Assembly: GCA_030141605.1 (NCBI GenBank)
Contig: JAQGDQ010000908.1
Coordinates: 1 to 64,000, forward strand
Direction of reading: 5' to 3'
Source: Tubiluchus corallicola
Lineage: Eukaryota; Priapulida; Priapulimorpha; Priapulimorphida; Tubiluchidae
DNA length: 64,000 bases
Each line of letters starts with the position of its first letter. Within the stretch, counting starts at the first letter, position 1. A program made the translations under genes and the position numbers. This document shows positions 7,967 to 64,000 of the stretch, in pieces. The notes beneath the pieces are model-generated. The model saw only the letters and a list, made by a program, of their open reading frames with translations, had not been told where the DNA came from and searched no databases.

Positions 7967-8038
7967 GCCAAATCACGTTGAAAACACCGGTTCTCGTCTG
8001 ATCATCGAAGTTAAGCAACGTAGAGTCTGGTTAGTACT
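7967..8038 (+). pseudogene. Truncated 5S rRNA gene copy
   Basis: The sequence from CACGTTGAAAACACCGG through TCTCGTCTGATCATCGAAGT, TAAGCAACGT and TGGTTAGTACT matches the conserved 5S rRNA backbone, roughly nucleotides 10-75. This includes the start of the internal pol III promoter. The 3' part (GGATGGGTGACC...) is missing and replaced by a CTA/GTA/CCA triplet palindrome. The first ~10 bases are also diverged. It is a dead fragment, possibly a retroposed copy or the head of a 5S-derived SINE3-like element. Confidence 0.75.
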
Positions 8039-8174
8039 ACTACTAGTAGTACTACCACCACCGCCACCACTACTAAGGACATTTCTAATGACAAATATTT
8101 TATATTAATAAAGATAATGAAAATCTAAAAAAGCAATTAGCTTTATAACACAAAAATTAAGATTAGCAAAGATG

Positions 8175-9189: not shown

Positions 9190-9464
9190 CTGCATTTTTG
9201 ACGTTTTAAAGGGCCATAAGCAAGAACATAGTTTTCAAACCAATAAACGTGTACATCTTTAGAACTTAGTAAAAAGGCCGGAAAACAGCTGAAGAAAACA
9301 CAACTTTGCTGAAAAATCTGGCTTAAAAGTAAATTTGTTTGGGGGCTAAAATTATAAATTGATTTAAAAACTATAATACATGGCTTCCGATAATATAAGC
9401 TTGGGATACAAATTATACATCTATGAATGCATGACTTCCGGCAGTCCAATACACACATCCCCTC

Positions 9465-17060: not shown

Positions 17061-18057
17061 GATGTGGTGGCGCGTTGTGTGTGTTGTTGTGTAGTAGCCT
17101 TAAATATGTGTGGGTATTTTTCATTATAGTTTAGCTATAAAATACATATTTGTACATAATGTAGAAAAGTCAGAATTGTATCTGTAGAACTGTAGCTGAT
17201 CCTATAGTATGGTGAATAGTGGAACTACCCATTCATAGAAGGAATAGAAGAATTTCACCCATCTATTCACTACCCAGCTTTGGTGTTGTTCAACTTTGGT
17301 CGTGAAATTATATTGGAACATATACTTGGACCAGTTTTGGTATTTCCTTCAGAACTCGGTGCTCTAAGCAAAGCAATTTGGCCTTTACAGACTTAATTAT
17401 AGTACGATTATCATTTGTAATAAAAGCGTTTGAATTAAGTCCATTAATGGCAAAAACTTTTTAAAACGATTTTTCAGAATTAATTTACCAAAAAAAATTT
17501 AAAAAACATTTTTACCTGTTTTTTAACCAAACGATATCACTACTGTAAAATTGACAGTTGTGCCGGTTCAAGATATGGAACAATAACTGGCGGTTCAGAT
17601 GTCAAAAAGTCAAATGTTATATACTTGTTAGCATGTCAAAAATAGTTCACGAACTAACAGATTAGTTGTGCTGTGATCTAAGGTAGTGTATCTGTGATAA
17701 AGCGATTTTTCCTAGTGTTGATGTGCTGCATTGATTACTTAAGTCTTCATGACAAAGAGGTTATAACTCGACTGTTGCTTTCAGCTTTGAAACTTGAAGG
17801 TTCTATGTACAACATGTTAATCACATAATAACCAATGTTAGAGACAGCAGTGCTGTCGTTAAATTGTCAGACAGTAACGTTGAACCTGTTGCTGTTGAGT
17901 ATCGCAAATCGCTTCTACTGCTGCTCAACACCCCCCCCCCCATTCACATTCTAGTTTAAAGCTGAAACTCTCTGCTTATTAACATGTTTCCAAACGCTAA
18001 TTAGAAATGCTGATGCTCAAAATATGATACTGATAACAATAATTTTACATTTTGCAG
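17061..18057. other. Intergenic or intron upstream of DUF268 gene
   Basis: AT-rich, no coding region recognised, with a run of about 11 C at 17931. The final bases TTTTACATTTTGCAG form a good splice acceptor into the DUF268 exon, so part of this is probably intron. I could not pick out the upstream exon. Confidence 0.5.
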
Positions 18058-19051
18058 ATTTACAAAGGGAGCATACATTTTGACAGCATTTGCACTTGCG
18101 ATCACAATGTCTATTGGAGTGATAAAAAATTTTGATTTTGACACCGAGACATTTGAAATTCGCACTAATGAATCCATTATTATAACCAAAAGTAACAGTG
18201 AATGTGGCGAAGCTTGTGATATAAACGCTGAAAATTTTAAAATGTCTCAAGGCCTAAATTACCCTTTGTTACACAAAAGTTTCCACTGCGGATTTCTTAT
18301 GCAAAGGTTGTTTTTAGAAAGGCCAGCAAAGCAGTGGCCACCACCCCGTGAACCACCACCTTCGTTACTTGATGAATTCACAATGCATGGAGCAATGCCT
18401 GTGTTGAAATACAGGTATTTTGCCCAGAAGAGAAAGAATAGTCGACATTATTTTAACGTTGAATTCATTTCAAAATTACAGAAGAAGGCACTAAAGGGTG
18501 AAAACGTTTCTTCCTATGGCATGAAAGGCTTCAAGTTGCTAACTGAAGCTTTAAATGTTTTTAGAGAGGTCATTGAAAGTAAAGATGTTTTAGTAATTGG
18601 TACAGTGAAACCTTGGGTTGAAGCATTACTGCTTAATGCAAACGTAGGTCATATAACAACTATAGACTATAATGAAGACACTTCAACACATCCAAACATT
18701 ACACTTATAGCACCTTGGAAATTAGCGGCACAATATCTTCATGAACCCAAGCCTCTTTTTGATTTTGGCGTCAGTTACTCCTCACTGGAACACAGCGGTT
18801 TAGGTCGCTATGGAGACAACCTAAATCCAGCAGGTGATCTTGAAGCTATGGCTCAAGCTTGGTGTTTGATAAAGCCAAAAGGTATCTTCATACTGAATGT
18901 TGAACATGACAAGGGTAAAAATTATTTAGTATGGAACGCTCATCGTGTATATGGAGATGAAAGGCTGAAACACCTGACTGCAAACTGGAATGTTACCACG
19001 TTACTGCAGGAAGAAAGGCATGTGTTACGAATCATGCAAAAGGTTGAATGA
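18058..19051 (+). CDS. DUF268 family protein, type II membrane
   Basis: The frame is open from the splice acceptor TTTTGCAG at 18050-18057 to the stop TGA at 19049-19051, about 331 codons. The C-terminal two thirds match the DUF268 family: DVLVIGTVKPWVEALLL, then VGHITTIDYNE, SYSSLEHSGLGRYGDNLNP, GDLEAMAQAWCLIKPKG and NAHRVYGDERLKHLTANW. The order (GxxxPWxE loop, acidic strand end, hydrophobic SYSSxEHSG) resembles a methyltransferase-like Rossmann fold, but the activity is unknown. Before it lies a basic RFTKGA and a hydrophobic helix, YILTAFALAITMSIGVI, a type II signal anchor. The first in-frame ATG (18107) falls inside that helix. I therefore take the true start to lie in an upstream exon joined in phase 2. 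AATAAA at 19595-19600 could end the transcript. Confidence 0.85.
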
Positions 19052-27212: not shown

Positions 27213-29474
27213 CCCTGGAGTGTTAATGTCTGCGGTTTTTTGATAAAACTATTTGCCTTTCATCTGTCAAATTTTTTAATCCTCTGTTTCCTGCATTTTC
27301 CCAGGTTTGTCTAGTTTACGCAATAACGTTAAAACCTGAGAGAATATCTTAACAAAAATATAAAACTGCTCATCAATGATTTAAAATAAATATAGACGTA
27401 TTGATTTCGAAGTTGTCTTTGGGGGGGGGGATAATCTTGGAAAATATTTATGGAAGCTTCTTCATCACGAATCAACGTTTGCAGATTTGATTTGTGAAAC
27501 TTATTTGCTACAAAGTTTACTCTTTATATTGGCGGAGCTTATGGCAGAGATTCCTGAGCAAATATTTGTGAATAATGTTGATTTCTCCTTTCTTAACTCA
27601 CCCGAAAAGAAATCGAAATTCCTTTTCAGTCCTTGCTTTTAATCTTTAGCCTGCTTCTCTGTAACTCACTTTTCATTCTGATAGATTTAACATCGAAAAA
27701 TTCATAAAGTTTTAGAGTTTAAATTCGCTAGATTCTGCTTAAATTTTTTTAAATATTTGAACAAAGATGTGAACAGCAAACTACAGAGTGCAGAAACTAG
27801 ACAGAAAGAGGGATGGAAAATTTTTGACTATAATCTTCGATAATTCACCTTTCATCAGTAATTTTGATTGATTTGCCCCAGCTCAATAAAGAAATTTTGA
27901 AATTTGATAAAATCTGCACGAATTATAGACAATTGGAAAACTTGATAAGACTGTTAACCTTCATGCAGTTTTAAAGAGATTAGCGCCAAAAGACCACCTT
28001 CTCTGCAGGGATGAAGTTTAACAGCGACTTCTTTGGTGACTCTTTGGAGAAGGCACCAAATCATGTGTCCACAATTTTATGAAAGTATACACTTCGTACT
28101 GTGAATTTTTCAAAAAATCTCATGTAGTGCATTAAAAGCAAATCTTACATTGTCTTGATTTGGCTTTTCATTTTGATTAATTATTTATTACTTTCGTGAC
28201 TCTGACTGCAAGTACCTATTATTAAACTAGTAATGTGGGGTATCTTACGTTTTATGTAGATATCACTATCATTGGTGCTTACAAAATTAATGATCCCGTT
28301 TAAGTTGCAAGTGGCTTTTGCCAAAAAAACAATGCATGTATGAAGCAGCTTGTGTGAGAGAAAAAAACTGTTATCTAATCACACACTTCTGTCACACTTT
28401 TTAAAGTCTAAGATCTTTATTTGGTAGTATTATGAGTTAGTATGTAACTAGTTCAAAATAAAAAGAACGTAGGAGTTCGTTAATTAAGTAGAGATATTCA
28501 ATTAACTACAAATATTAAACCACAAAAAACCAAAAATGATCTTGACACAAAAATGTGATCGTTACAATAGATCAATTGGCTGTTTAACTGCAAATACTCA
28601 TTGTAACAAAATTAATAAATATTGTATAAAAAGTTAAATATTTCCATTGCCAGCAAGTTAATCAGGCATAAAAATGAAATGCAGTCGCATTTATTTTAGT
28701 TGCTTTCACCTCAACAACATGGCAATTTGTAACTTCCGCTATTAAAATAAATCCAAGCCAGTCTCTCGCAATTGCACGTTTTTTCAAATGCCGTTCTATC
28801 TTGTGGTGGTCATCATTGGACTCTCATTGGGAGCCCCCAGCATGGACCTCGTCAGAGTGCCCGATTTTAGGAAACTATATCTTGATCGAATCTGATGTAG
28901 CAAAGTCAAAAAGCTTAAAGCAGCATTCACTTTTTAAGAAAAATTAATAAAGTGATAAAAGCAACAGAGTGCCATGACAGTTTCAGGTCGCAAGTCATGT
29001 CACAGAGTTATGCTTCAGTGCGTCAAGTGCCTGTTCTAGATAAGCTAGTTTGTGACATCGTGATTTAGACTAAATTAAAGCAGTATACGCCGTTGTGACC
29101 TTGATAGAAATGTGCGCATTAAACTAAATTGCCAAATTTGTAGTTATGTCGCCTTGCTTTGTCAGGGCAGAATACATCTAGTTCTGTGTGATGCACGGTG
29201 CGTAATAAATTGCGCACAAAATGAGCTGGAAGTGCTTCCGCGTACGCGTAATAAATTTAGATAGAATACGGAAGTATTGGTAGCATTAATGCGGATTTTC
29301 GTGCACAAATCACGCACATAGATTCATAGGCAAAATGGGCCTATTTATATACTATTGGAGTTGCTAGATGCTGCCAGACTAAAAGACCTAGTTTGTAGGC
29401 AAGTACGTTTTATTAAACACATTGAAGGATCTTTTATGTCTTTTCACATCTCCTATTGTTAGAACAATAAAACT
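27213..29474. other. Intergenic, upstream of fucosyltransferase
   Basis: AT-rich, no coding region recognised. A G run of about 10 is at 27421. A short GC-richer patch at 28800-28870 has no known match. The 5' region and promoter of the fucosyltransferase gene should lie in the last part, but no TATA box can be singled out. Confidence 0.45.
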
Positions 29475-30623
29475 ATGACTACGAAAAAAATTGCTATAGT
29501 CACTAGTATCATTTTTACTTTAACAATGGCTGTCTTGTATAATTCATGGACCATAAATCCACTGTTAATTGAAGTGAGACGTTTTAACCGGACTTCAGAA
29601 AGAGTTGAAAGCTATTATCCTTCCTTCACTAGTAACCTAACAATTTCACCAACCCGGAAATTAATTTTGTTTTGGAATAAGTTCCACAAGGATGATTTTT
29701 TTGATTTTGGAAAAGGAAGTAAGCCTTTTGAAATGTGTGACGTGCGGGATAGAAATTGTGAAACAACAAATGACAAGACTCGTTTGAATGAAAGTGATGC
29801 AGTTATTGTGCACATGAGGGGCAATATTACTCCTTTCCCTGTTTACCGACCATCTGGACAAAGATGGGTTTTCGTTTTGTGGGAAACGCCAATCAGAATG
29901 TTTCCCTACAAAAAAGGAAAAATCCCAGACTTGTCGCATTTAAATGACATTTTTAACTGGACGATGACTTATCGTCTCGATTCCGATTTTCCTCGCTTAC
30001 ATGGAGAAGTTGTCTTACGTCCTTCACCTCGTGTTGAGATTGTTAAAAATTACGCTAAAGGAAAGGCAAAACTAGTGGCTTGGTTTGTAAGTAACTGCAA
30101 CACCGATTATACTGGACGAATAGAATATGCCAAAGAGTTACAGAAATACATCTCTGTTGATGTATATGGCAAATGTGGCAACTTAACATGTCCGAAAAAA
30201 GACCGTTATTGTGATAAGATGTTAAAACGCGACTATAAATTTTATTTGTCATTTGAAAATTCTTACTGTCGTGACTATATTACAGAGAAAGTTTATAACA
30301 GGTTAATGTTCAGCAATGTGATTCCCGTAGTGAGAGGTGCTGCTGATTACACAAAGTTAACCCCATCACATTCAGTAATCAATACAGCAGATTTTGACTC
30401 AACTAAAAAACTTGCCGAGTATCTCTTGTATTTGGATAAGAACGACACTGCTTATTCACAATATTTTGCCTGGAAGCAGAATTATTCTATAGCAAGAGGC
30501 GCAAATCGAAGCTTCTGCCATTTGTGCAAAAAACTGAATAATCCGACTGAACCAGCAAAAACATACAACATACAAGACTGGTGGGTGAAGCAAGGAAATT
30601 GCATCGAGGTACAAAGACAGTAA
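29475..30623 (+). CDS. Alpha-1,3-fucosyltransferase (GT10)
   Basis: A complete single-exon frame of 382 codons, with its ATG at 29475. Residues ~5-25 (IAIVTSIIFTLTMAVLYNSW) form a signal anchor, giving a type II Golgi protein with a short cytosolic tail. The lumenal part has the N-terminal GT10 features (DAVIVHMRGN, RWVFVLWETP) and the C-terminal nucleotide-sugar domain: VAWFVSNCN, YGKCG, then FYLSFENSYCRDYITEKVYN and FSNVIPVV. This GDP-fucose binding signature is diagnostic of alpha-1,3-fucosyltransferases. Paired cysteines near the C-terminus (SFCHLCKKL) are also typical. The enzyme moves fucose from GDP-fucose to GlcNAc of N- or O-glycans. The length is normal for the family and no key residue appears lost. 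It may be an intronless gene or an old retrocopy; no flanking poly(A) tract proves the latter. Confidence 0.93.
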   Translation: MTTKKIAIVTSIIFTLTMAVLYNSWTINPLLIEVRRFNRTSERVESYYPSFTSNLTISPTRKLILFWNKFHKDDFFDFGKGSKPFEMCDVRDRNCETTNDKTRLNESDAVIVHMRGNITPFPVYRPSGQRWVFVLWETPIRMFPYKKGKIPDLSHLNDIFNWTMTYRLDSDFPRLHGEVVLRPSPRVEIVKNYAKGKAKLVAWFVSNCNTDYTGRIEYAKELQKYISVDVYGKCGNLTCPKKDRYCDKMLKRDYKFYLSFENSYCRDYITEKVYNRLMFSNVIPVVRGAADYTKLTPSHSVINTADFDSTKKLAEYLLYLDKNDTAYSQYFAWKQNYSIARGANRSFCHLCKKLNNPTEPAKTYNIQDWWVKQGNCIEVQRQ

Positions 30624-44250: not shown

Positions 44251-47136
44251 ATAGCCAAGTTATGCTGTCCATAAGCAAAGAATTCTATACTGAGACATTT
44301 AAAACCTTAAATTTATTAAAGGTAAAGAAATTTATTAAAGGACGAAAATGCTTTACATTATGCGTTCAAGGTTCAAATTCAGCATGAATTCAGAACACAA
44401 AACTGGTGGGTACAATTTTGCAAAAATTGACCAAATTTGCAACCTAAGCATTCAGAATGTTCTCAAAATTGATATACATATATCAGCAATACGTTTTTAT
44501 AAGCCCATTCTACTTTTGACGCTTGCCTATAAGTTCTACCGGACTAGATGAAATGATGCCTTATTTAGTTGGTTATTTTAAAACATTATTCGCGGTAAAA
44601 TAGCATTAGAGATAGGAGTTATTTGATGGTAATATACACTGCATATATTCTAATAAGAATAAGAATACACAGGTTTTAAAATACTTCATTACAGCTTATA
44701 ATTATATTCGCATTTACAATATGTTTAGCAAAACGTTAAACCACCAATTAGGGCAAGAATGCCAAATACGGTTGGACAGACAAATTCAGACAAATACGGT
44801 TGGAAATGTTTCCTTTACTTCAAGACTTCCGAAGGAAGAATGCTAGGTAGTGGGTGAATGAGGAGCATGTTTAGCTACAAAAACACATGGCTAATTGTTA
44901 TACCATCACAAACATCATACCTGCTAGCTCCAAAGCAAGGAAATTGCATTCTTGTGTTATGTGCAGTCCTTGTAATTATGAACACAAATTCTAGACACCT
45001 TTATCTCCACCAATTTCTGCAATGCTAGACTTTTTTCTGGACAGGTTAAGAAAATTTGATACTGGTTTGGTTTTTTGGTATTAATTATGCTAATACCAAG
45101 GGCACTCTGATAAAATAAAATAAAATAAAACAAAACAATAAAAGAACTTGGACATTAAATTTGATAATAGAAGTGTAACATTCAAAAATAACTAGTTGAC
45201 AATGTTTCTGACGTGGCCAGAAACTTAACATTTTGCAAACAATAGCTACAGAATTGGGCCATAAAACGGTCACAGCAATTTGCTTGAAAATCATAATTTA
45301 GATTTTGTTCAATACGCGTTGTTGCTTGATTACGCAGCAACTGCACTTCACAACTTTCTACTTTTTAACCAATGACCCTTGTGCAAGGCCACGGCACCAT
45401 TTGGCAACATACCAAATATTGTGGCCCTAACTCAAGAACTGTGGAAGAAGATAGATCCTAAAGAAAAATAAACGAAGTCCTGCATGCTCCATGTCCTTTG
45501 GCCTGGCGATTCGGGTCACAAGTTTAACTACATAACTTTGCCCAGAAAGTGCACCCTGTGAGCTTTCTGTACATTGCCCTCGGCATGTAAAATGTCACCA
45601 ATTGGGGGAAACCCCAAATTTTCCATTTTGGCCCCTTCTTCGGGCGTTTAAAGCTTGCCAGCTTTATAAAAAAACCCATGTGAAAAAAATTGACCACAGC
45701 AAAATCTTAATTACAAATTCATACAACAAATCAGTAACAATATTTAAAAAAACCGTTAGCATAATCACGAGCCTATACACGTATACATATATATCACAAA
45801 TAAAAAAACGTTTCAAATATAGTCATACAGCAGAGCACAATAAATAATCCAATCAGGCTAACATTCTCATACAACTGAAAAGAAAATCAGATTATCATTA
45901 AAGAAACAGTCATCATTAGGAAGAAAGAAAAATATAATTACTCTTAGCTTGTACAACCTTTACAACAACAAAAAGCTAACGTATCTGTCACGTCTCTGTA
46001 GATTGTCAAAGAGAAACAGGATTACCAGACATTTATATGAGAATACTGTAGAAAACGAGTTAAAGTATTTTAAGCAGAATAGACAAGCCTACATGATACT
46101 GTAGGGGTGTTGCTAGTACAGTATTGAGGCGAAGCACGTGATATAAAATGAAACCACAATATATGGAAAGTTAACTGTAGCAATACCGCAAGGGAAGTTA
46201 ATTCCTAGCACACCACTAAACTAATGGGACAAAGTAGTTATTATTTTAAGGCACTTGGGAAATCGTGAACACGATTCGCGACAATCTCATTTTGACTCAT
46301 GATTTGTAAGCCAATCTTTGAGAGTCCAATCAGATCAATTTCAATCCCGTGCTCGATTCCAGGCACGACATTCTTTTCAGCATGCTGAATGGTGTGCAAG
46401 GTTCAATAAGTAGCATACTTACTTCCATAAGTAGCCATTTAAACCCGTTTTTGGTTTTTACATCTTCATTAAAATAAATAAGCCAAATTTTTTATTTAAC
46501 ATTGTGTAGCTGTTTCAGCTATATCAATAGGATTTTCTCTAGTTGATTCATTTTGCACCTCTTGGAACAATTTTAAGTTTTATCTTAATTAAATCAGCTG
46601 TACGTTTAATTTAATTTTTTCCAAAGTAATTTCTTTTTCCTTAATTAAATATCAAGTTTGATCTTTTTCATTATAAATAATTAATAATTGCTCTCATCGG
46701 TTTTTACCTTTTTGATTATTTAAATTAAATTTTGTTTTCCTTTGGCTACTTAAACTGATTTTGTTTGACATTCGCAAATTTATTTTTAGTTGTTTGGATG
46801 TTAATGCAAGTATTGATTAAACGTTTTGCGCAATTCTTCAATTAGTATTTCGTTTAGTAACTCCTTTGGTTTTAGTGAATTACAGTCAGTTTTGTTCATG
46901 TGCATTACCCTTCCGATTTGTAGTTACTCTTGGCCAGTTACGTGAACCTTGTGTTTTCTTCATTATTGTGGCGATTTTGTATAAGCATAACTATAATGTA
47001 GAATTAAAGTTAAAAACGTTTGCGCTACATCTTGCATATAGTGTGTTTTATAATGCTTTCGGGCACATTCGGAAAAGAACAAGCTGCTAATATTGTTTGT
47101 AATCTTCTTTGTTCTTTGAAAAAATTGCGTAAAAAC
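44251..47136. other. Intergenic, upstream of FkbM gene
   Basis: AT-rich with an (AAAAT)n-like patch at about 45113-45140. No supported gene. The reading frame of the FkbM gene is open back to 47020, but without a better ATG than 47137. Confidence 0.45.
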
Positions 47137-48096
47137 ATGAACTGCTCTCAATCAAAATTCTGCTTTATTTTAAGTTTTATTTGTATTATCGTCAGTTTAA
47201 GCTTGATACATTTTCTGAAGCAAGTGACGTTAATTAACGGTTTCTTCAAAAATAAATCTGAAGTGTGTAATTTTTGTGATTTTATTGTCAGTTCAAGTGA
47301 TTTATTAAAAATTCAGTATGGAACTTTGGCTGCTGATGATAAGCAGTTGTTGGAACACATTAGAAATTGGTGGATTATAGGACCATCTGAGCATCCTGTA
47401 ACTGGAACTGTCACTGATAATTCACAAATACAGCAGTCAACCATCGTAGACAAATTACTCAATCAAAGACAACATGGATTTTACGTAGAATGTGGCGCAG
47501 CAGATGGACATCTCTCCAATTCAATATTTTTTGAAAGAAACCGTGGATGGAAAGGGTTATTGATAGAACCTAATCCGTTATTGTTTAAGAAGTTATTGGA
47601 AAGGAACCGCAATGCATATCACATAAACGCTTGTTTAAGTACAAAAAATACTGCAGAGAAATTAAAATTTGCCATGGCTGGCTTGCTAGGTGGCCTGACT
47701 GAGACAATGGACTCTGATCGGCAAAGTAGATTGACGCGTAAGACCAATGCCACCGGGCTTCAAGTTACAGTAGTACAATGTTTTCCACTCTATTCTATGA
47801 TGCTTGCACTTGGACAAACTCACATTGATTATTTATCTCTAGATGTTGAAGGAGCAGAACTTGACGTATTAAAAACAATACCATTTGAAAAGCTTACCAT
47901 AGATACTCTGACCATTGAATACCGCTCTACTAATGGGGCTCATATTTGTAAGGAAAATACTTTAGCAAAGTTAAAATATATACGTAAATTCATGGAAACA
48001 ACAAAGCTTTATCGGGAAGTTTCCTTATTACCCAATCGAAAGGACGAACTTAGTCAAGATATCGTGTTCATGCGCCATGATACAAAGCCTTCTTAG
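47137..48096 (+). CDS. FkbM-type SAM methyltransferase, membrane-anchored
   Basis: A single-exon frame of 319 codons from ATG 47137 (AAAAACATGA) to the stop at 48096. I chose this ATG because a short N-tail (MNCSQSK) is followed at once by a hydrophobic anchor, FCFILSFICIIVSLSLIHF, giving a type II membrane protein. The frame is also open upstream, and an earlier ATG exists at 47053. The catalytic domain starts at about residue 110: GFYVECGAADGHLSNS (SAM-binding loop), GLLIEPNP (acidic strand 2), then IDYLSLDVEGAELDVL and TLTIEYRS. This is the FkbM fold seen in invertebrate membrane proteins of this type. Such enzymes methylate hydroxyl groups on sugars or small molecules; the substrate here is unknown. 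All key SAM-binding residues appear intact. Confidence 0.9.
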   Translation: MNCSQSKFCFILSFICIIVSLSLIHFLKQVTLINGFFKNKSEVCNFCDFIVSSSDLLKIQYGTLAADDKQLLEHIRNWWIIGPSEHPVTGTVTDNSQIQQSTIVDKLLNQRQHGFYVECGAADGHLSNSIFFERNRGWKGLLIEPNPLLFKKLLERNRNAYHINACLSTKNTAEKLKFAMAGLLGGLTETMDSDRQSRLTRKTNATGLQVTVVQCFPLYSMMLALGQTHIDYLSLDVEGAELDVLKTIPFEKLTIDTLTIEYRSTNGAHICKENTLAKLKYIRKFMETTKLYREVSLLPNRKDELSQDIVFMRHDTKPS

Positions 48097-52752: not shown

Positions 52753-54689
52753 TTAACTTTGGTAACGTAGCGAGACTAATACTAAGGCTTTTGAAATGCG
52801 GAGTTGTCCTTGTGGTTTATGTGTACCTGTTTCTGAATACAAAGTTTACTAAAAGACTAATTAACATTTCAATGCTTTTATTCTACTAACAGACAATATG
52901 AGTGAATCAAGAGAAAAAGAAAAAAAATACATTACAATAGTTAAGGATGGCCATTTCAAGAATTACAGCACGAGTTCTTGGTACCAAACAGTAACCTAAT
53001 AGTAACTGCAGTTTTCACTGTCCATAAGAGTTTGTGCACAAGATATCACCAATTTGAGTAATCACTATTGAGCTCAAAAGTAAACTGTTACTTATCTCTG
53101 GAGTGAGCGCTCACTACGTCAGTCCATTGGCAATCACTGGGGTACTCCATGGAAGGGATACCATCTCCAAAACATCGCATACCACGCTCGACAGTACTAG
53201 GTGCCGGTCCTCCACACCCTGACAACAAGGGCTGGGTTGCTTATACTGTGTAGAAGGCTCAAAGTTGGTCTTTACTCCACTCAATTGCATTACAACACAT
53301 TGTCCATTAGGATAGTATTACACCATTTACAACTGTCCAGGCTTTTTCACAATAAAACACCAGTTCAGCCATTTTCAACAGATAAATTTTAAGTTTGTCC
53401 TCAAAGGTATAAACCCAACATTTTAACAGCTCTCATTTTCCAGACCATTCTACCCACTTCTCAATATCAAAAGCACATTTTCCTGTTACTGGAACAGTTC
53501 ACTACATTCTAGGTAGTTTTATACTTTAGACAGGTAACTGTAACACTATATAGGCTGAATGAGAAAGCAAAACACCCCTGTAATAAAATAAACAAGGCCG
53601 AAGCCAACACACTTTCAAAATGACCTGCATAACACTGACATGTAGGTTACATGTGGGGCAGATATAGTTCATGGGAGCCTGGTACATTATTACAACAACA
53701 GCCATAAAAAATAAAGTAAACAATGCAGGTAGCTTCCTTATACAAAATCAAACTAAGTTAGGCCTCTTCAATCGAACAAAACATTTATCATTGAACAAAT
53801 TGCATAATATAATGTACATAGGTGGTTGCTTGTAATGTGCAAGAACACACTTTAGCCAAGGGGTGGACCTAGTCTGGTCCATCACAGCCATGACCTCTAC
53901 AATTACAGCTCACGAAATTGCCAGTTCTCGAAAAATTTGATCCTTAATCAAACACAGGTTTTTTCTACTCTTTTTTGAAAGTGGTATTACCAGTCTTTTT
54001 TATGACTTAAATTTTTATGACTTTATTTACTCGCTCCTCCCTGATTTTGTTATGGAAATTCATATAATTTCATTAAGGGACTCATCCAGCTTGTAGCTTG
54101 AATTTAATGAGTTGGAAAAGTGAAACCGACAAACTGAGATGTCGCAAGTTAAGTTCAAGAGTTTAGATTTAATAAGCAGAATTGTCGCAATGTAGTGAAA
54201 CTGACAGGTTCAGAATTCAAAGAGGCGCTGTTTACTAGCAGCGTGCACGCCAATTAGAAAACAAGAGAATAAGGTCAGTAGTAACCGTTTGTCACGTGCC
54301 GAGGAAGAAATCAAAAGCGGCAAATCCAGTAGCAGCAATTATTGATCATAAAGTTAGAAATCGAAAGTATTATCCGCTGTCCAGGAGGTAAGATGGCCCG
54401 AGATGGTGCAATACTCAATATTTGCTTTATAAGCTTGAAGAAAGTTCAAGCCACACACACAACGAGGGAGAGTCACACACACAACGAAGGAGAGTCACAG
54501 AGATGACGTGGAGGAGAGACTGACAGTGGTTGCCGATACATTGTTGTTGTGTCTGAGGCATATTCTGCAAGACGTCAGAAATATCGTTAGTCCAGTGTTG
54601 GGAATAAATTTATAAATCGATAATTTGGTAATAAATCTCATGCCTCCCTGATTTTATAAAATAAATTTATTGATCGATATAAGAACTCA
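52753..54689. other. Intergenic, no gene recognised
   Basis: No coding region supported. A 23-bp tandem duplication (ACACACACAACGA(G/A)GGAGAGTC) lies at about 54454-54499. Upstream sequence of the gag-protease copy at 54.69 kb does not match that of copy 1, so that copy is 5' truncated. Confidence 0.45.
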
Positions 54690-56117
54690 TCTGCCCAGGA
54701 AGAGCCGTAGTAGGCTTGAGGAGGCCGCAGGAAAACTATTAGGCTCCCAACGGGTCGTCTCCCCCGTCAGGAGCCAACCTTTTGTAACGGAGATAAGCAG
54801 CGTTGTAAATAATAAAATTGTGAATAAAGATAGTGTATGCAATAATTGTAGTAATATGACTAGCAATAAAAAGGGCAGTGATGCGCATAGAGGGTGCCAA
54901 TGTAATTTAAGGGTGTCAAGTGTGAATAGGGATAATTGGGACGCAGTGTGTGCGTTCCGAACTCACAGCTCAACAGGCTGGCAGGAACCATTGGTTACCC
55001 AGCCGACCTGTTTGGTTGAATTAAATGGTAGGCCTACACTTATGCTGATCGACACGGGTGCAGCGACCTCATGTGTGTCGTTAGCATTATATAAATGTCT
55101 AGGAATGGGACCTTGTAAAGCAAGTAGCGTGACTTTGAAGGATGCCTCAGGCACAGTCATGCCGGTAATTGGGTCAAGAGATATTGAAATTTTAGTGACA
55201 GCAAAGTTAGAATTAAGTATCAAATCGTCCGAGTGCAGCAGAATGCCATTTTAGGCATTGATGCACTTCAAGCAATGAATGCCTCGTTAGATTGTGGTAG
55301 GAAATTGATGATTATTGGTAAAAAGGCCTACCTTCTTGCTTTAGATCGAGTGAGTGAGAAAGAACTCGATGTTCTTCTCGCCGATGAGAACACTCTAATC
55401 CCCTGTAACAGTGAGGTAGTGATGCGTACTCGGATTAAGAGGGATAGGCCAAATGGACAACTCCTGTGTGTGGAGATGGCCGAACATGCGCACGTGTTTA
55501 AGAATCGCCCGGACGTTGGGTTCGAGGCCGGTTTAGTGGATGTAGAAGAAGGGCATAGGAGCTCAGTACTCATACGAAATAATTCATGTAGGCCCATAAG
55601 AATTAGGAAGAATTGCGTGATTGGCACCGCGCAAGAAACTATCGTATTGAACGTACATGCAATAGCGCTAGCAAATAAGTGGAACAATAAAAGCGGCTCG
55701 AGAAAAAATTATGGCGTAACTAGTCAACGAAGGTTTCGAGATGATAACCTTCACTGCATGCCCGCACGGAACAAGGGGATTCTGCAGGTTCCCCAGGTCC
55801 CTAATGACCGACGATTAGTGGTGAATGCGATGACTCGCGGCAAGATGCATAATGATAGAGTGCGCAGTAGGGCAGCAGGTAATTATCCACAAGAATGTGG
55901 ACTTAAAGTTCAGTACGATGATAGGGGCGGAATGTTTATGGAACTCCGGGATATAGAAGGCCCCTCGCCAAGCGTTTCAGGCCGTTTCAGAGCTGAACGT
56001 GTATCAGAACCCGAAATCTCACAAGAAGGAGAAGATCTTAGTAGGAGGGGCCAGGAGGGGTCAACTCCTGTGCTTACCTCTTTGCCAGGGGCAACGTTAA
56101 GTCAAGGGCAATGTTAA
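54690..56117 (+). pseudogene. gag-pro: Gag-protease of LTR retrotransposon (copy 2)
   Basis: The open frame up to 55254 contains RLEEAAGKLLGSQR, then a cysteine cluster, STGWQEPLVTQPTC, and the retropepsin active site LMLIDTGAATSC (DTG at 55051). One base out of frame the protein continues VQQNAILGIDALQAMNASLD (the ILG...D protease C-terminal motif) and a long downstream region to the stop at 56117. Copy 1 at 9.5-11.3 kb has the same blocks in the same order, which supports one family. The frameshift at about 55200-55230 breaks the protease. The start is truncated: only the Gag C-terminus is present and there is no ATG. The region after about residue 60 of the second frame has no match in copy 1, and no RT follows. 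Confidence 0.75.
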
Positions 56118-56780
56118 GCACATACACGTTTCCCTACCTATTAAATTTGGTCTTGCCCCTTTAACTGTCATCAGTCATGTGACCAGGTAGTTGGCCAGGT
56201 AGACATTACCTGACATGCAATTCAATTGATATGATGTGAATGTTGTTGTTGATTTCTTATTGTTTTTTCTTGCAAGTTATAAGTGCCAAAACTCAGGGAG
56301 ACCACATGTAAGTGTCTAATTATGTTTATTGAACAACTTTATGCTATTAGAACAATTTAGCTGTCATTTTTTTGTACAATTATAGACGATAATCACGTTA
56401 GCTAATTTCGTAATGTACCTTTATCAAACTTATGTTTTTCATTAAAAACTTATTGCTGTAATTTATTATTACAGATAAAACGACAATTGCTGCATGTTAA
56501 ACATTTGATGTTCTGGAGTTTAAATGTAGTACAGTTTTATATGCCTCGCCGGGAGTTTCATGTTGCCATTAAGCAGTGACCTTGGTTCAGGCGCAGGAAG
56601 TTTGACATGCTTACCTGATAGCTTTGCTCATTATGGGTTTCTACAGCGTAGCTGGTTTCTACAGGTAAAGCTGCATGAACTCTGTGAACTTGGACGCGTC
56701 AGCTAATGGGCAATAGATGGCGCTTCGGTATTGAAAGGTGATCCTAAAATTTTTAAAGAGCAATTTAATTTCAATTGAAA
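56118..56780. other. Leader region of the BEL element
   Basis: Mostly AT-rich sequence. TGGCGCTTCGGTATTGAAA at 56718-56736 could be a primer-binding site: its complement ends in GCGCCA and includes a T-arm-like TTCAATACC. It lies only 45 bases before the Gag ATG. No clear TG...CA LTR could be bounded upstream. Confidence 0.35.
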
Positions 56781-59700
56781 ATGGCATCAGCGTTATTCAC
56801 TAAAAGCGAACTGGAAAATAAAGTAGTTGAAGAGCTGAGGCAAATTCTTCGTAGCATGTCTTTGGCGGTTTCTGGCAACAAGGCAAATTTAGTACAACGA
56901 ATTTTGAAGCAACAGGAAACCGGTCCTTGTATACCAGGCTCTCCAGATGAATCAGCCGATTTATCGCCACCCTCAATAGTAACTGACCAATCCATGCAAG
57001 AGAATCGTAGGAGCGAAAAGTCCACCAAATCCTCGAGTGTGACGTCATCGAAGAAGAGTGCCAAGCTAAGAAACCAAGAGCTTATGATTAAAGAACAAGA
57101 ACTCAAACTCCAAGCGATGAGAATACGACATGAACGCATGCAGAATGAGTGTAGTTCTGAAGATGAACGTGATGAAGACAGCTTTGGTTCTGCAGCTGAT
57201 GTTGAGACCAGGTTAGTGGACCATGGAACATCAGACTCAAAGGTCAAAGCATGGCTAAGGTCAAGGTCAACATACACGGATCCGACAATTAAACATACAC
57301 AACCTACATGCGAAAGCGATGAGAATTACTTGTCTGAAGCCTTTGTTACTCTAGCAACTACTGATAAGTATGCTTTGGGAGCACTTGTTCTTGCTTCTAG
57401 TTTGCATCGCACAAGAACAATGAGATGCTTAGTCATCATGGTAACAGAGGGTATTTCTTGTGATATTATGACACTTTTGAGAAATGCATTTGATTTGGTT
57501 GAACATGTCAGTATTATTGATAGTCATGAGTTTAAAAGGTTACAATTGTTAGGAAGACCAGAACTTAATGTGAGTTTCACTAAGCTACATTGTTGGAGGT
57601 TGACACAATTTAGCAAATGTGTTTTTGTAGATTCTGATACAATTGTATTAGATAATGTTGATGACATGTTTAGATTTAAAGAGCTGTCAGCTGCCCCTGA
57701 TGTAGGCTGGCCAGATTGCTTTAACTCTGGGGTGTTTGTTTACAAACCAAGTATTGATATGTATAATAAGTTAATGTTGTATGCTAAATCAGAATCCTGT
57801 ACTTTTGATGGTGGGGACCAAGGATTATTGAATCAGTTTTTTAAAGACTGGTCAACTAGTTATGAAAAACATTTGCCATTCACTTATAATGCTGTCATTC
57901 AGGGTCGGTACGGATATTTACCAGCTTTAATGCAATTTGGGAAAAATGTAAAAATTGCTCATTTTTTAGGTCAACATAAACTATGGCACTATATTGAACA
58001 CGATTCGCATACAGCTCACGTGGCGCCACCTGTTGGCAAAAAAGGTTATGAATTCGACATAATGAACAAGTGGATACAGATCTTTGATACTGACGTTAGG
58101 CCACTGCTGGAAAACAAAAATATTCGTTTGCCTATGCAGCATCCAAGTTCTGGAAATCAGTGTCTGAATGCATCAGCGTCTGCCTTTATTCCACTAGCGC
58201 ATGGCAGTAATATACTGCGCGAGAATAGGCATGGTTTTAATTCTACTCAACCTACCATTTGTACTGCTAACTTAAGCGACATGCCTAATCAATGCCACCC
58301 ACAGAGCAATGACATGACTATGATAATGAACATCATGCTTGAAGCACAGCGTCAACATACCAACATGTACAAAGCAATGCAACTTCCAATAGCGGAGTTG
58401 GACAAATTTGATGGTAGCGTTCTAAACTTTTGGCAATTCATGAGACGTTTTGAAGCCAACGTCGAGAGCTACACACAAGATGAGGCTGCGAGGTTTCAGA
58501 GATTAATGCAATTTTGCACTGGAAAAGCCAAAAAAGTTGTAGAAAGTTGTAGCTACATGGACCCCAGTCGAGCATACAAGCATGCAAAGCAGTTACTCAT
58601 CGACAGGTTCGGCTCCTCGTTTATGGTTACTCAGGCTTGGATGTCAAAAATAATCGAGTTTGACCAAATCAAGGCCAATGACAACGAGAAGCTGCGAGAA
58701 TTTGCTGACTTACTTTTAAGCTGTGTCGAGACGTTGAAAGCAATGAATAATCTCAGCGAAATTAATACACAGACAAGTCTCGTTCAGATTGTTAAAAAAC
58801 TGCCATACAAATTCCATGATAAATGGAAAGACGTGGTGTCCAGGATAGCAAAACATGAAATCAGAAACCCATGTATTTATGATTTGCTAACATTCATTCA
58901 GGAAAATGCTGAAAAAATGAACCACCCTGTATATGGTAGCCTCGGCGATTGGGAAAAACCTAAACGAAGCATCTTTGCCAAAAATTATGCCACCTCTGCT
59001 AAAACACCTCAAGTTCAAACAAACAATGGCAAGGCGAAAACAAATCAAGAAAAGCCGCAAACCAAAAGCGCCCAATTTTGCAAAAAAGTTTGCATATTTT
59101 GCAACTCAAATGAGCATTCTTCTCTTGGACAGTGTGAAGCTTTTGCAGCTATGGACCCCCCAGCTAAGTTGATGTTCGTGCGTAAGGAACGCCTCTGCTT
59201 TAATTGTTTGGCGAAAGGAAAACATAGAGCAGCTAGATGTTTCAAACCGTCTTGTAGTGTTAATGAATGCAACAAGAAGCATTCAGCTTTATTGCACGAT
59301 GCAGTGGGGAGGCTGAGCAGTTCTTCTTCAGATGTTAATAGGCTTGCCAGGGATGAGCAGCAAAGAAAAGACGAGACTGAAGCTACAAGCTGTGCAAATA
59401 GGGACAGTTCTAAAGGAAAGAAGATAGCATTGCCTATGGTCAAAGTTCAAGTACATGTACATGGAAGAGACCCTGTTGAAGCCATGGCTCTGTTAGACCC
59501 TGGATCTACAAACACGTTTTGTTCCAGGAAGCTGTTTGACAGCATAGGTGCTGAAGGAAAAGAGGATGTTCTTACCCTAACCACAATCGAGAAACGCCAA
59601 AGTAAAGCAGACACTTTAGTTACAAGTTTCGTTGTTACGGACAGCATTGGTGAAAACAGAATCATGTTGCCTCATGTTTTTGTTCGACAATCACTGATGC

Positions 59701-60077
59701 TAGATACAGAATGCTTTGCATCAGTCGCAGATGTTCAAAAATGGCCGCACTTGAAAGAGATAGCGTCATCTTTAGTTGAGTATCACGGACACGATGAAGA
59801 CCTAAGCTTACTAATCGGTCTTGACGTACCTGATGCCTTGGCGCCTCTGCAAGTTAGACGTGGTGTTGTAAACGCTCCTTATGCTGTTAAGACGAAGTTA
59901 GGATGGACGTTGAATGGGCCTATAGCGGGCAGCAAAGTACACAACGTGTCAGTAAATAATTATGTTCTGGTCAAAGAGTCTTCTGAAGCCAAAACAGATG
60001 TCTTGCAGCAGCAAGTCGAGAGATTTTGGAAAATAGATTCTGTTTGGATGATGAGCAGTATTCTAGAGAAGAGATGA
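56781..60077 (+). CDS. BEL/Pao Gag-protease with captured glycogenin domain
   Basis: One open frame of 1098 codons from ATG 56781. Domains in order: SAP motif (residues ~5-45); Ser-rich and charged coiled-coil-like part with REXELKLQ-type repeats (~75-130); glycogenin GT8 domain (~185-447); linker; DUF1759 Gag domain (~528-760, starting AELDKFDGSVLNFWQFMRRF); zinc knuckles (CIFCNSNEH and CFNCLAKGKHRAARC); DUF1758 aspartic protease (ALLDPGSTNTFCS and LIGLDVPDAL). SAP, DUF1759, knuckles and DUF1758 are the standard BEL/Pao order; the GT8 domain is foreign. The frame should continue into RT but shifts near 60030-60060 and stops at 60077. The start is set by the first ATG in frame. Gag forms the particle, the protease matures it, and the sugar-transferase activity would be an extra. 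Confidence 0.9.
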   Translation: MASALFTKSELENKVVEELRQILRSMSLAVSGNKANLVQRILKQQETGPCIPGSPDESADLSPPSIVTDQSMQENRRSEKSTKSSSVTSSKKSAKLRNQELMIKEQELKLQAMRIRHERMQNECSSEDERDEDSFGSAADVETRLVDHGTSDSKVKAWLRSRSTYTDPTIKHTQPTCESDENYLSEAFVTLATTDKYALGALVLASSLHRTRTMRCLVIMVTEGISCDIMTLLRNAFDLVEHVSIIDSHEFKRLQLLGRPELNVSFTKLHCWRLTQFSKCVFVDSDTIVLDNVDDMFRFKELSAAPDVGWPDCFNSGVFVYKPSIDMYNKLMLYAKSESCTFDGGDQGLLNQFFKDWSTSYEKHLPFTYNAVIQGRYGYLPALMQFGKNVKIAHFLGQHKLWHYIEHDSHTAHVAPPVGKKGYEFDIMNKWIQIFDTDVRPLLENKNIRLPMQHPSSGNQCLNASASAFIPLAHGSNILRENRHGFNSTQPTICTANLSDMPNQCHPQSNDMTMIMNIMLEAQRQHTNMYKAMQLPIAELDKFDGSVLNFWQFMRRFEANVESYTQDEAARFQRLMQFCTGKAKKVVESCSYMDPSRAYKHAKQLLIDRFGSSFMVTQAWMSKIIEFDQIKANDNEKLREFADLLLSCVETLKAMNNLSEINTQTSLVQIVKKLPYKFHDKWKDVVSRIAKHEIRNPCIYDLLTFIQENAEKMNHPVYGSLGDWEKPKRSIFAKNYATSAKTPQVQTNNGKAKTNQEKPQTKSAQFCKKVCIFCNSNEHSSLGQCEAFAAMDPPAKLMFVRKERLCFNCLAKGKHRAARCFKPSCSVNECNKKHSALLHDAVGRLSSSSSDVNRLARDEQQRKDETEATSCANRDSSKGKKIALPMVKVQVHVHGRDPVEAMALLDPGSTNTFCSRKLFDSIGAEGKEDVLTLTTIEKRQSKADTLVTSFVVTDSIGENRIMLPHVFVRQSLMLDTECFASVADVQKWPHLKEIASSLVEYHGHDEDLSLLIGLDVPDALAPLQVRRGVVNAPYAVKTKLGWTLNGPIAGSKVHNVSVNNYVLVKESSEAKTDVLQQQVERFWKIDSVWMMSSILEKR
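57333..58121 (+). other. Captured glycogenin (GT8) catalytic domain
   Basis: About 262 codons inside the Gag frame align end to end with the catalytic core of animal glycogenin, from SEAFVTLATTDKYALGALVL to the DVRPLLEN helix. Conserved residues (numbered from ATG 56781): Lys268 in TKLHCW (human Lys86), DxD Asp284 and Asp286 in FVDSDT (human 102/104), DGGDQG at 343-348 (human Asp160-Gln164 region) and Tyr377 in RYGYLPAL (human Tyr195, the self-glucosylated residue). GWPDCFNSGVFVY is identical to the mammalian stretch. The FLG..KPW block has Leu in place of Pro (FLGQHKLW). Glycogenin primes glycogen by adding glucose from UDP-glucose to its own tyrosine. The segment has no introns, no UTR remnants and no glycogen-synthase-binding tail, so it comes from a spliced mRNA trimmed to the catalytic unit. 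Confidence 0.95.
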
Positions 60078-60775
60078 TGGTCATCGATATTTGGGAAAGC
60101 TCAATAACCAGAAGAGACGGCCACTATGAGTTAGAAATACCATTTAAAGGCAAACATAATGTTATTCCTGATAGCTTTCAGATGGCAGCAAAACGGCTCA
60201 ATGGACTCAGAAGAAAATTCACCAAGAATCCCATTCTTCATCAAAAGTACACTGACGGAATCAACGATTTGCTAAACAAGGGTCATGCAGAGCTAGTGGA
60301 AGAACAATCAGCAAGTACTCCTACACATCTGACTTGGTATCTTCCTCACTTCCCAGTCTTTAACGAAAATAAACCAGATAAAACCCGTATTGTTTTTGAT
60401 TGCGGTGCAGAGTGCGAAGGTATTTCACTGAACAAATTGGCTTTGCAAGGTCCTGACCTTACGAATAATTTGGTTGGTGTCCTCTTGCGATTTAGGCAGT
60501 ATCCAGTTGCCGTGCTAGCAGATATACGTGAGATGTATCACCAAGTGTTTGTTTCGCCCAAGCATAGAGATATGCTGAGGTTCATTTGGTGGCCTGAGGG
60601 ACGAATTGACCAGCCTCTTCAGATACTTAGAATGACCGTGCATCTTTTTGGAGGGGTTTGGTCCCCCAGTGCGGCTTCATTTGCCTTGAAACGCACTGCA
60701 TTGGACTACCAAAACAGCTTTGATAAAGAAACGGTAGCAACAGTGCTTTACAATTTTATGTGGATGACTGCCTAA
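60029..60775 (+). pseudogene. pol: BEL/Pao reverse transcriptase, frame-shifted
   Basis: In the -1 frame relative to Gag-protease the protein resumes ENRFCLDDEQYSREEMMVID, then the BEL RT: HYELEIPFKGKHNVIPDSF, WYLPHFPVF, TRIVFDCGA, VAVLADIREMYHQVFV (first catalytic Asp) and RFIWWPEGR. It stops at 60775 right at the active-site box, because a base is missing in the run AATTTTATG. The expected FYVDD continues in the next frame. Homopolymer loss or a sequencing error are both possible. Confidence 0.85.
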
Positions 60776-61493
60776 AGTCAGTCGAGAATGTGGACCAAGC
60801 ATTGAAGCTAATTACTCAGCTAAAGCTGCTTTTACAGAAGGGTGGATTTTGTTTGACGAAATGGATGTCAAACGATAAACGTGTTCTCGACACTATCCCA
60901 ATTGAAGATAGGGGAAAAGGTGTTAAAGATCTAAACTTGTCAAATGACACACTGCCAAATGAGCGTGCCTTGGGAATAAGTTGGCAGATGGAGGCTGATA
61001 TGCTAGGCGTCCATGTAAAACAAAAGGAGCATCCCAATACAAAGCATGGATTGCTTAGTTCTCTTTCCAGTGTCTATGATCCCCTTGGAATGTGTGGTCC
61101 ATTTGTTCTACAAGGAAAGAAACTGTTTCAAGAAGAATGTCGTTTACCAGACAAAATGTGGGATAGCAAGTTGGACGGCGCCATAGAGAAGAAATGGAAA
61201 CAATGGAAAGACGAAAGCACACTGTTAACAGATTTCAAGATTGAGAGATCATTCATGCCTCGTGAGTTTGGTAAGGTGATATCCACAGAGCTTCATTATT
61301 TTTGTGACGCTTCTGAAAGTGCTTATGGTGTGGTAGTGTTCATTCGTCAGCAGAATGAGCTCAACGTTATCCACACTGCCTTTGTCATTGCGAAATCAAG
61401 GCTAACTCCGATGAAAGGACTGACTATTCCTCGCCTGGAGTTATGTGCAGCAGCTCTTGCAGCTAAACTTGAAAAGGTGCTATGGAAAGAGCT
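60760..61493 (+). pseudogene. pol: BEL/Pao pol, RT end to RNase H, truncated
   Basis: The third frame starts with YVDDCLKSVENVDQALKLI, continues with KGGFCLTKWMSN and LGISWQMEADMLGV, the peptidase A17/Pao segment (HGLLSSLSSVYDPLGMCGP, LFQEECR) and RNase H-like HYFCDASESAYGVVVFIR and KGLTIPRLELCAAALAAKL. It runs directly into the 19-bp minisatellite at about 61494, so the rest of RNase H and the whole integrase are missing. No 3' LTR is seen in the window. Confidence 0.85.
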
Positions 61494-64000
61494 AATGGAA
61501 GTCCTCTGTCCTCTTGGAAGTCCTCTGTCCTTTTGGCTATCTTCAATCCTATAGGAAGTTATCTAGGAAGACATATGTCTTCATGGAATTTCTGTGTCCT
61601 CTAGGAAGTCCTCTGTCTTCTTGGAAGTCCTCTGTCCTTTTGGTTATCTTCAACCCTCTGGGAAGTCTTCTAGGAGATCCTCTGTCCCCGAGAAGTCCTC
61701 TTTCCTCCACAAGTCTTCTGTCTTCTAGGAAGTGCTCTAGGAAATCATCTAGGAAGACCTCTGTCCTTTTGGAAGTCTTTTATCTTCCAGGAACTCATCT
61801 AGGAAATCATTTAGGAAGACCTTTGTCTTCTGGGAAGTCCTCTGTCCTTTTGGCTATCTTCAATCCTATAGGAAGTTATCTAGGAAGACAACTGTTTTCA
61901 AAAAAATTCTGTGTCTTCTTCGAAGTCCTGTGTCCTTTTGGTTATCTTCAATCCTCTAAGAAGTCTTCTAGGAGATCCTCTGTCCTCCAAGAAGTCCTCT
62001 TTCCTCTAGAAGTCTTCTGTCTTCTAGGAAGTCCTCTAGGAAATCATTTAGGAAGACCTTTGTCTTCTGGGAAGTCCTCTGTCCTTTTGGAAGTCCTCTG
62101 TCCTTTTGGCTATCTTCAATCCTATAGGAAGTCAACTAGGAAGACATTTGTCTTCAAGGAAATTCGGTTTCCTTTTGGTGTCCTCTGTCTTCTTGTAAGT
62201 CCTCTGTCCTTTTGGATGTCTTCAATCCTCTAAGAAGTCTTCTAGGAGAACCTCTGTTTCCCGAGAAGTCCTCTTTCCTCTACAAGTCTTCTATCTTCTA
62301 GGAAGTCCTCTAGGAAATCATTTAGGAAGACCTTTGTCTTCTGGGAAGTCCTCTGTCCTTTTGGAAGTCCTCTGTCCTTTTGGCTATCTTCAATCCTATA
62401 GGAAGTCATCTAGGAAGACATTTGTCTTCAAGGAAATTCTGTGTCCTCTTGCAAGTCCTCTGTCTTCTTTGAAGTCCTCTGTCCTTTTGGTTATCTTCAA
62501 CCCTCTACGAAGTCTTCCAGGAGATCCTCTGTCCCCCGGGAAGTCCTCTTTCCTCGACAAGTCTTCTGTCTTCTAGGAAGTCCTGTAGGAAATCATCTAG
62601 GAAGACCTTTGTCTTCTAGGAAGTCCTCTGTCCTTTTGGAAGCCCCCTGTCCTCTACAAAGTCCTCTGTCCTTTTGGAAGTCTTTTATCCTCCAGGAAGT
62701 CATCTAGGAAGACATTTGTCTTCAAGGAAATTCTGTGTCCTCTTGGAAGTCCACTGTGTTTTTTCAAGTCCTCTGTCCTTTTGGATATCTTCAATCCTCT
62801 AGGAAGTCGTCTAGAACGACATTTGTCTTCAAGGAAATTCGGTTTCCTTTTGGTGTCCTCTGTCTTCTTGTAAGTCCTCTGTCCTTTTGGATGTCTTCAA
62901 TCCTCTAAGAAGTCTTCTAGGAGAACCTCTGTTTCCCGAGAAGTCCTCTTTCCTCTACAAGTCTTCTGTCTTCTAGGAAGTCCTGTAGGGAATCAGGGAA
63001 GACCTTTGTCTTCTTGGAAGTCCTCTGTCATTTTGGAAGTCTTTTATCTTCCAGGAAGTCATCTAGGAAGACATCTGTTTTCAAAAAAATTCTGTGTCTT
63101 CTTGGAAGTCCTGTGTCCTTTTGGTTATCTTCAATCCTCTAAGAAGTGTTCTAGGAGATCCTCTGTCCTCCAAGAAGTCCTCATTCCTCTAGAAGTCTTC
63201 TGTCTTCTAGGAAGTCCTCTAGGAAATCATTTAGGAAGACCTTTGTCTTCTGGGAAGTCCTCTGTCCTTTTGGAAGCCCTCTGTCCTCTAGAAAGTCCTC
63301 TGTCCTTTTGGAAGCCCCCTGTCCTCTACAAAGTCCTCTGTCTTTTGGAAGTCTTTTATCCCCCAGGAAGTCATCTAGGAGGACAATTGTCTTCAAAGAA
63401 ATTCTGTGTCTTCTTGGAAGTCCTGTGTCCTCTTGGTAATCTTCAACCCTCTAGGAAGTCTTCCAGGAGATCCTCTGTCCCCCAGGAATCCTCTTTCCTC
63501 GACAAGTCTTCTGTCTTCTAGGAAGTCCTGTAGGAAATCATCTAGGAAGACCTTTGTCTTCTAGGAAGTCCTCTGTCCTTTTGGAAGCCCTCTGTCCTCT
63601 AGAAAGTCCTCTGTCCTTTTGGAAGCCCCCTGTCCTCTACAAAGTCCTCTGTCTTTTTGGAAGTCTTTTATCCTCCAGGAAGTCATCTAGGAGGACAATT
63701 GTCTTCAAGGAAATTCTGTGTCCTCTTGGAAGACCTCTGTCTTCTTGGAAGTCCTCTGTCATTTTGGAAGTCTTTTATCTTCCAGGAAGTCATCCAGGAA
63801 GACATTTGTCTTCAAGAAAATTCTGTGTCCTCTAGGAAATCCTTTATGAACTTTTCTGTCCTCCTGGAAGTCCTCTGCCCTTTTGGAAGTCATCTAGGAA
63901 GTCCTCTAGGGAATTGTTTAGGAAGATTTTGTCTTGCAGGAAGTCCTCTGTGTTTTTGGAAGTTCTCTGTCTTCTTGGAAGGCCTCTGTCCTTTTGGATA
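61494..64000 (+). repeat. 19-bp minisatellite with higher-order repeats
   Basis: At least 2.5 kb, running off the window end. The base unit is GGAAGTCCTCTGTCCTTTT (19 bases), with many variants (GGAAGCCCCCTGTCCTCTA, GGAAGACATTTGTCTTCAA) and shorter 12-base units (GGAAGTCATCTA). Longer duplicated blocks are superimposed: 62143-62309 recurs at 62818-62984 (675 apart) and 61887-62098 recurs at about 63070-63281 (1183 apart). Because 19 is not a multiple of 3, all frames read a rotated 19-residue unit. Neither strand has a stop in the consensus, which explains the long false ORFs (up to 239 codons). Confidence 0.9.

Follow-up and report, generated by a model that had tools for sequence, protein, structure and literature searches.

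In this 64,000-nucleotide stretch of a contig (JAQGDQ010000908.1) from the priapulid Tubiluchus corallicola, referred to here as the window, a BEL/Pao long terminal repeat (LTR) retrotransposon carries a glycogenin catalytic domain inside its Gag protein. The stop-free frame extends over 56769-60077 on the forward strand, and its first ATG, at 56781, opens a protein of 1098 amino acids. A SAP domain, the glycogenin domain (glycosyltransferase family GT8), a DUF1759 capsid region, two zinc knuckles and an aspartic protease follow one another in it (Table 1). The initial annotation had described these five parts in one frame, with the glycogenin domain intronless inside a BEL/Pao Gag, and both points were borne out by the open frame, the joints and the recurrence of the layout across the genome. 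The Pfam match of the protease was below the cut-off (E value 0.032), and the Pfam scan of the frame reported no zinc knuckles. In the AlphaFold model of the whole frame (mean predicted local distance difference test score, pLDDT, 66; predicted template modelling score, pTM, 0.43), the SAP domain, glycogenin, helical capsid and protease were separate globules with low-confidence linkers between them, and the protease region (residues 886-1044) was strand-rich.

The two joints differ in sharpness. At the C-terminal side, the octopus glycogenin match (tblastn) ended at 58115, and the matches of three database Gags (P0123, P0124 and P0125) started at 58122, 58122 and 58095, respectively; therefore the capsid-side Gag resumes at the end of the enzyme. 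A motif at this resumption, LNxxAxx[FW]xP, was found in the same three of 30 scanned database Gags, and a looser form in P0126. The N-terminal joint is less sharp, and Gag homology there is weak. Homology of the predicted helix ahead of the domain to other Gags was mostly not above that of shuffled sequences, with P0123 and P0129 alone clearly exceeding the 60 shuffles, and was too weak to be used. In diverged carriers of the domain, the N-terminal parts were 171-204 amino acids long where fully open (8 of 14 inspected), the other six being shorter or broken.

Residues 182-445 aligned to rabbit glycogenin-1 with an E value of 7.6e-83 (phmmer), which excludes a chance likeness, and the Glyco_transf_8 Pfam match was above the cut-off (E 5.1e-13). 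The model of the domain alone (pLDDT 79, pTM 0.83) matched solved glycogenin structures, the best at E 1.1e-30. Alignment to vole glycogenin-1 showed K86, D102, D104, D125, N133, D160, D163, Q164, Y195, H212, G215, K218 and W220 unchanged in the window copy, which has Thr at N12 and Ser at T83. We take the scored residues to have their usual glycogenin roles, namely metal binding, catalysis, the His and Lys of the uridine diphosphate (UDP) site, and the acceptor Tyr. All 14 scored sites are covered in 11 of 16 element domains, and apart from T83, replaced by Ser in two, ten of the 11 keep every one. The C-terminal glycogen-synthase-binding motif, a pattern present in 88 of 120 glycogenins, was found neither in the 1098-residue protein nor in the six frames of 56001-61500, and there was no significant match to this tail in 20 carrier loci or in a 9.9-kb stretch around the host gene.

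The same layout was then found throughout the 343.5-Mb assembly. A search with the whole protein returned at least 55 Gag matches; 42 of 425 first-look candidates were scored, and the counts are thus lower bounds. The top eight rows were 92-100% identical, and 12 further rows, 37-51% identical, extended from residue 2-8 to residue 1051 or beyond with glycogenin included. Subfamilies of carriers are 37-53% identical over Gag. A search with the GT8 domain (all 104 candidates scored) gave 89 matches, merged into 67 places. On the same strand and no more than 2 kb downstream, a BEL/Pao capsid match follows at least 50 of these places, including at least 34 of the 38 that measure 700 nt or longer; the count draws on 104 of at least 152 capsid matches. 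Of the 17 places without a capsid among the matches listed, four are glycogenin-like gene pieces on contigs C2137 and C2318 and one, on C1210, lies at a contig end. The copy counts include likely duplicate contigs (e.g., C1796, C2016, C2136, C2140 and C2209). SAP was present in the N-terminal parts of all eight scanned carriers, six above the cut-off and two just below it. Hence the further SAP-GT8-DUF1759 copies that the initial annotation proposed to look for do exist, and its contrary case, in which all other family members lack GT8, is contradicted by the places with a capsid.

Two other copies are flanked by LTR pairs. The copy on contig C448 has an open frame of 2201 amino acids, between LTRs of 424 bp that differ by one mismatch (99.76% identity), with GTACC on both outer sides by eye. 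The copy on C1810 has an open frame of 2217 amino acids, 48% identical to the window Gag, and its 413-bp LTRs differ by a single gap (99.76% identity); by eye, ATATT flanks the pair on each side, with some ambiguity there as to the precise LTR end. The near-identical LTR pairs indicate that the element family has been active recently. The window holds a 5' LTR only and no LTR pair. Two comparisons place this LTR as in Table 1: other copies become similar at 56112, and C448 has a 3' LTR that aligns from this same start at 99.07% identity. Downstream, the reverse transcriptase part aligned to five BEL/Pao relatives at 44-52% identity, and the Pao-type peptidase A17 gave a Pfam match of E 3.6e-40.

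Table 1. Coordinates of the element and its parts in the window, with the satellite that interrupts it.
Feature	Position	Strand	Basis
5' LTR, ~424 bp, starts with TG	56112-56535	+	Similarity to other copies begins here; last two bases may be leader
Gag-glycogenin-protease open frame, 1098 amino acids (P0001)	56781-60077	+	Open reading frame (ORF) reading
SAP domain, residues 16-43	56826-56909	+	Pfam E 3.3e-8, above cut-off
Long predicted helix, residues 92-123, ahead of disordered linker	57054-57149	+	AlphaFold model
Glycogenin catalytic domain, residues 183-445	57327-58115	+	phmmer, tblastn, domain model and fold match, genome search
DXD metal site, Asp284-Ser-Asp286 (D102, D104)	57630-57638	+	Alignment to vole glycogenin-1
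Catalytic DGGDQ, D343, D346, Q347 (D160, D163, Q164)	57807-57821	+	Alignment to vole glycogenin-1
Tyr377 (acceptor Tyr195)	57909-57911	+	Alignment to vole glycogenin-1; Tyr in 12 of 12 element domains covering the site
LNxxAxx[FW]xP motif, residues 462-471, at Gag resumption	58164-58193	+	Common to P0123, P0124 and P0125
DUF1759 capsid region, residues 543-686	58407-58838	+	Pfam E 4.8e-9, above cut-off
Two zinc knuckles, residues 771-839	59091-59297	+	Cys/His columns, invariant or nearly so
Aspartic protease-like domain, residues 886-1044	59436-59912	+	Weak Pfam match; strands in AlphaFold model
Reverse transcriptase part, other frame, frameshift ahead of it	60047-60757	+	Alignment to BEL/Pao relatives
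Rest of reverse transcriptase and Pao peptidase A17, third frame, truncated by satellite	60751-61495	+	Pfam and alignments
Satellite breaking pol, outside the element; 19-bp unit, higher periods	61496-64000		Repeat and relative comparisons

Selection on the domain was measured on the pieces of 20 fetched loci and the window. Sixteen of the 21 had clean frames and were kept; L014 and L027 (frame-broken) and L011, L023 and L026 (one stop each) were dropped. The codon model gave a ratio of nonsynonymous to synonymous rates (omega) of 0.089 over the 16 domains, a rough value, as are all deep ones here, since synonymous sites between subfamilies are near saturation. In two shallow groups of five copies omega was 0.295 and 0.299 (p 0.0034 and 0.00016 against omega of 1 with kappa, the transition/transversion ratio, of 2). 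For the same eight loci with both parts clean, omega was 0.062 for the domain and 0.053 for the capsid, so that constraint on the enzyme is close to that on the capsid. The glycogenin domain is under purifying selection, and we hold with high confidence that it is a maintained functional domain of Gag. An earlier argument from an open Gag next to a broken pol in the window (P about 0.01-0.05) lost its point with the finding of many copies.

The host glycogenin on contig C2137 lies in five pieces over ~5 kb (splice sites approximate), and the element domain is uninterrupted; RNA-mediated capture is thus the simplest account, which supports the earlier proposal that glycogenin was taken from an mRNA. 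The GT8 tree with the host gene that had been suggested alongside was run with 16 element domains, some of them partial, and placing element and host domains as sisters cost 28.8 log units (p-AU 0.10, approximately unbiased (AU) test). In a separate comparison, the AU test rejected none of six donor placements, fungi included. From the sequences, the donor need not be the glycogenin of T. corallicola itself. The element domains are 46-60% identical to that of the host, which makes an old capture probable, barring exceptionally rapid evolution of the domain. A recent capture had been considered from base composition, as GC content at third codon positions (GC3) of the window copy was 66/250 in the domain and 297/797 in the rest of Gag (p 0.0018), and 314/1049 in three host-like ORFs of the window (p 0.28 against the domain). 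This was withdrawn; GC3 was 0.31-0.36 in nine other-subfamily sequences of the sixteen and in two more. A second, more diverged set of glycogenin-like gene pieces was observed at L060 (C2318:1-6000), at 606-794 (-) and 2400-2567 (+); lying on opposite strands, they may be a paralogue, a misassembly or foreign DNA.

The capsid tree (56 sequences, 191 columns) was built from 20 carriers and 20 non-carriers chosen from the at least 152 matches, the window and 15 database Gags. All 21 sampled carriers and seven non-carriers formed one clade with support 90, and the seven shared a subclade (support 100) with six carriers, some at near-zero distance. No GT8 was present in the fetched upstream stretch (~1.2-1.9 kb each) of the 20 non-carriers. 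Two of the seven nested non-carriers (L066 and L069) were scanned, and both have SAP in an open N-terminal part of 226-246 codons. The simplest history is one gain followed by loss of the domain, and after the capture the carrier lineage diversified under purifying selection. The nested non-carrier Gags (L065-L071) form a natural comparison set.

Taken together, the many copies and subfamilies, near-identical LTR pairs, long open frames, intronless domain, single capsid clade, purifying selection and kept active site make it quite likely that a BEL/Pao lineage captured glycogenin once, long ago and through RNA, and retained it as a functional piece of Gag that probably glucosylates itself. The element would have taken up a spliced animal glycogenin mRNA, the catalytic domain only, into the Gag linker between the SAP/helix part and the capsid, and would have carried it within Gag since. 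Gag may then bind Mn2+ and UDP-glucose and build a short chain of glucose on its own acceptor tyrosine (Tyr377 in the window copy), and particles could be assembled from such self-glucosylated Gag. Because catalytic residues and acceptor tyrosine have persisted together, the chemistry itself has probably been selected, and on this evidence we lean towards self-glucosylation of Gag. Short glucose chains are likelier than glycogen priming because no glycogen-synthase-binding tail was found, and Gag probably primes no full glycogen. The glucose might coat particles and keep them soluble, tether them, or help them dock near glycogen stores, any one of these roles being doubtful by itself. The carrier subfamilies have diverged roughly as much as the glycogenins of different animals have. 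We give roughly even chances to the fullest form of the proposal, in which a capsid precursor would be a working glycosyltransferase that glucosylates itself with UDP-glucose of the cell, providing an element-made particle carbohydrate, and one capture would have been kept through diversification.

Several observations weigh against this interpretation. In the window copy pol is broken by two frameshifts and the satellite, and 6 of 72 near-invariant columns are changed where 2.6 are expected (p 0.047), so that this copy alone shows slight relaxation. Omega near 0.3 in the shallow groups exceeds the deep-tree value. In carrier L025, the exception among the 11 fully covering domains, the DXD motif begins with Glu in place of D102, and each of three partial domains has one altered site: L087 (N133 to Ser), L090 (D160 to Asn) and L102 (Q164 to Arg, at the truncated end of its domain). 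Seven sampled members of the carrier clade do without the domain, which is therefore not indispensable to all. The free GT8 tree also fails to group the element domains. Separately, the L025 piece (C461:20460-21530) stays open despite its Glu and may represent a catalytically altered branch.

Some of these points favor other explanations. The domain might be kept as a structure, either a spacer or a dimerizing module for Gag assembly, or for UDP-glucose binding, with glucose transfer irrelevant. Glycogenin is a dimer, the domain is a separate globule between linkers in the model, and the tail is missing from the searched sequences, all of which would suit such a use; however, ten of 11 covering domains, from diverged subfamilies, retain the residues for metal binding, catalysis and glucose acceptance, which goes beyond the needs of a scaffold, and we regard this explanation as unlikely. 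Several independent captures by related elements would account for the three groups into which the free GT8 tree places the element domains. Those splits are unsupported (7), though, and forcing monophyly costs 0.15 log units (p-AU 0.60); the domain starts at residues 176-187 and ends at 441-447 in the 16 carriers whose aligned segment reaches the end, and one capsid clade holds every sampled carrier. Repeated capture is accordingly quite improbable. A neutral passenger that hitchhikes and decays would agree with the broken pol, the stops in some carriers and the nested subfamily without the domain, yet omega of 0.062-0.30, comparable with the capsid, and the kept active sites leave it very little probability. 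Only the broken pol of the window copy speaks for a chimeric assembly, an isolated insertion or one domesticated host gene. The layout recurs across the genome and is therefore no chimera, and a domesticated Gag gene would be one or few copies without LTRs, whereas many copies with LTRs are present; genome-wide recurrence and the LTR pairs rule these options out for practical purposes, short of an error in the assembly as a whole.

Other features of the window lie outside this question. The BEL/Pao element directly adjoins remnants at 54652-56117 (+) that, like 9159-9644 (-), resemble another retroelement family; 54652-55254 (+) has a gag-asp protease Pfam match, and 55188-56117 and 9159-9644 share the stretch NAILGIDAL.AMNASLDC by eye. 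On the other side, the satellite (61496-64000) has a 19-bp sub-repeat with higher periods of ~107 and 274 bp, and long stretches of it read open. Three long, uninterrupted host-like ORFs encode a DUF268 protein (18014-19051, +), a fucosyltransferase of family GT10 (29463-30623, +) and an FkbM methyltransferase (47014-48096, +). A 5S-rRNA-like sequence at 7960-8055 (+; 49.9 bits) may be a gene, a pseudogene or a 5S-derived repeat.

In other species, none of the fetched proteins matched both GT8 and Gag parts (238 GT8 only, 27 capsid plus nucleocapsid (NC)/protease, three NC/protease only). These searches covered 604-1922 amino acids with the whole protein and about 163-518 with GT8, Gag-Pol proteins of 2200 amino acids falling outside, and drew on the best 120 of 142, the best 120 of 2228 and all 28 matches. 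No GT8-Gag fusion was found in viral contigs or in prokaryotic genome contigs, and no glycosyltransferase or glycogenin inside a retroelement Gag was found among the matches listed in open-licence PubMed Central full text.

The element resembles BEL/Pao elements with a DUF1759 Gag in its capsid, zinc knuckles, A17-type pol, LTRs of ~420 bp and 5-bp target repeats, and the best database Gags are 38% identical to that of the window, but none of the 30 scanned has GT8 or SAP, both of which are present here. With metazoan glycogenin the domain shares fold, active site and acceptor tyrosine, and differs in being fused into Gag with no glycogen-synthase-binding tail found. To our knowledge, host genes picked up by LTR elements are fragments, separate ORFs or parts of defective viruses. 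The gag-onc fusions of acutely transforming retroviruses likewise join host coding sequence in frame to Gag, but they are recent and replication-defective, whereas the element described here is old, with several subfamilies and full-length open frames. Bs1 of maize, a plant LTR element, also acquired host gene sequence, but reportedly as gene fragments in a defective chimera, whereas here an entire enzyme domain is carried by a lineage that has diversified under selection. Bs1 is named in PMC7264820 and PMC11963269. In a planarian element, according to a legend, env lies in frame between gag and pol. According to PMC5408684, bdelloid rotifer LTR elements are likewise animal retroelements that keep an extra enzyme, a GDSL esterase or a DEDDy exonuclease, but in a separate ORF3. 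In T. corallicola, a complete metabolic enzyme domain instead occupies the interior of Gag in numerous diverged copies, under active-site selection close to that on the capsid; its job inside a capsid protein is now directly testable, and same-clade relatives without the domain offer a natural comparison.

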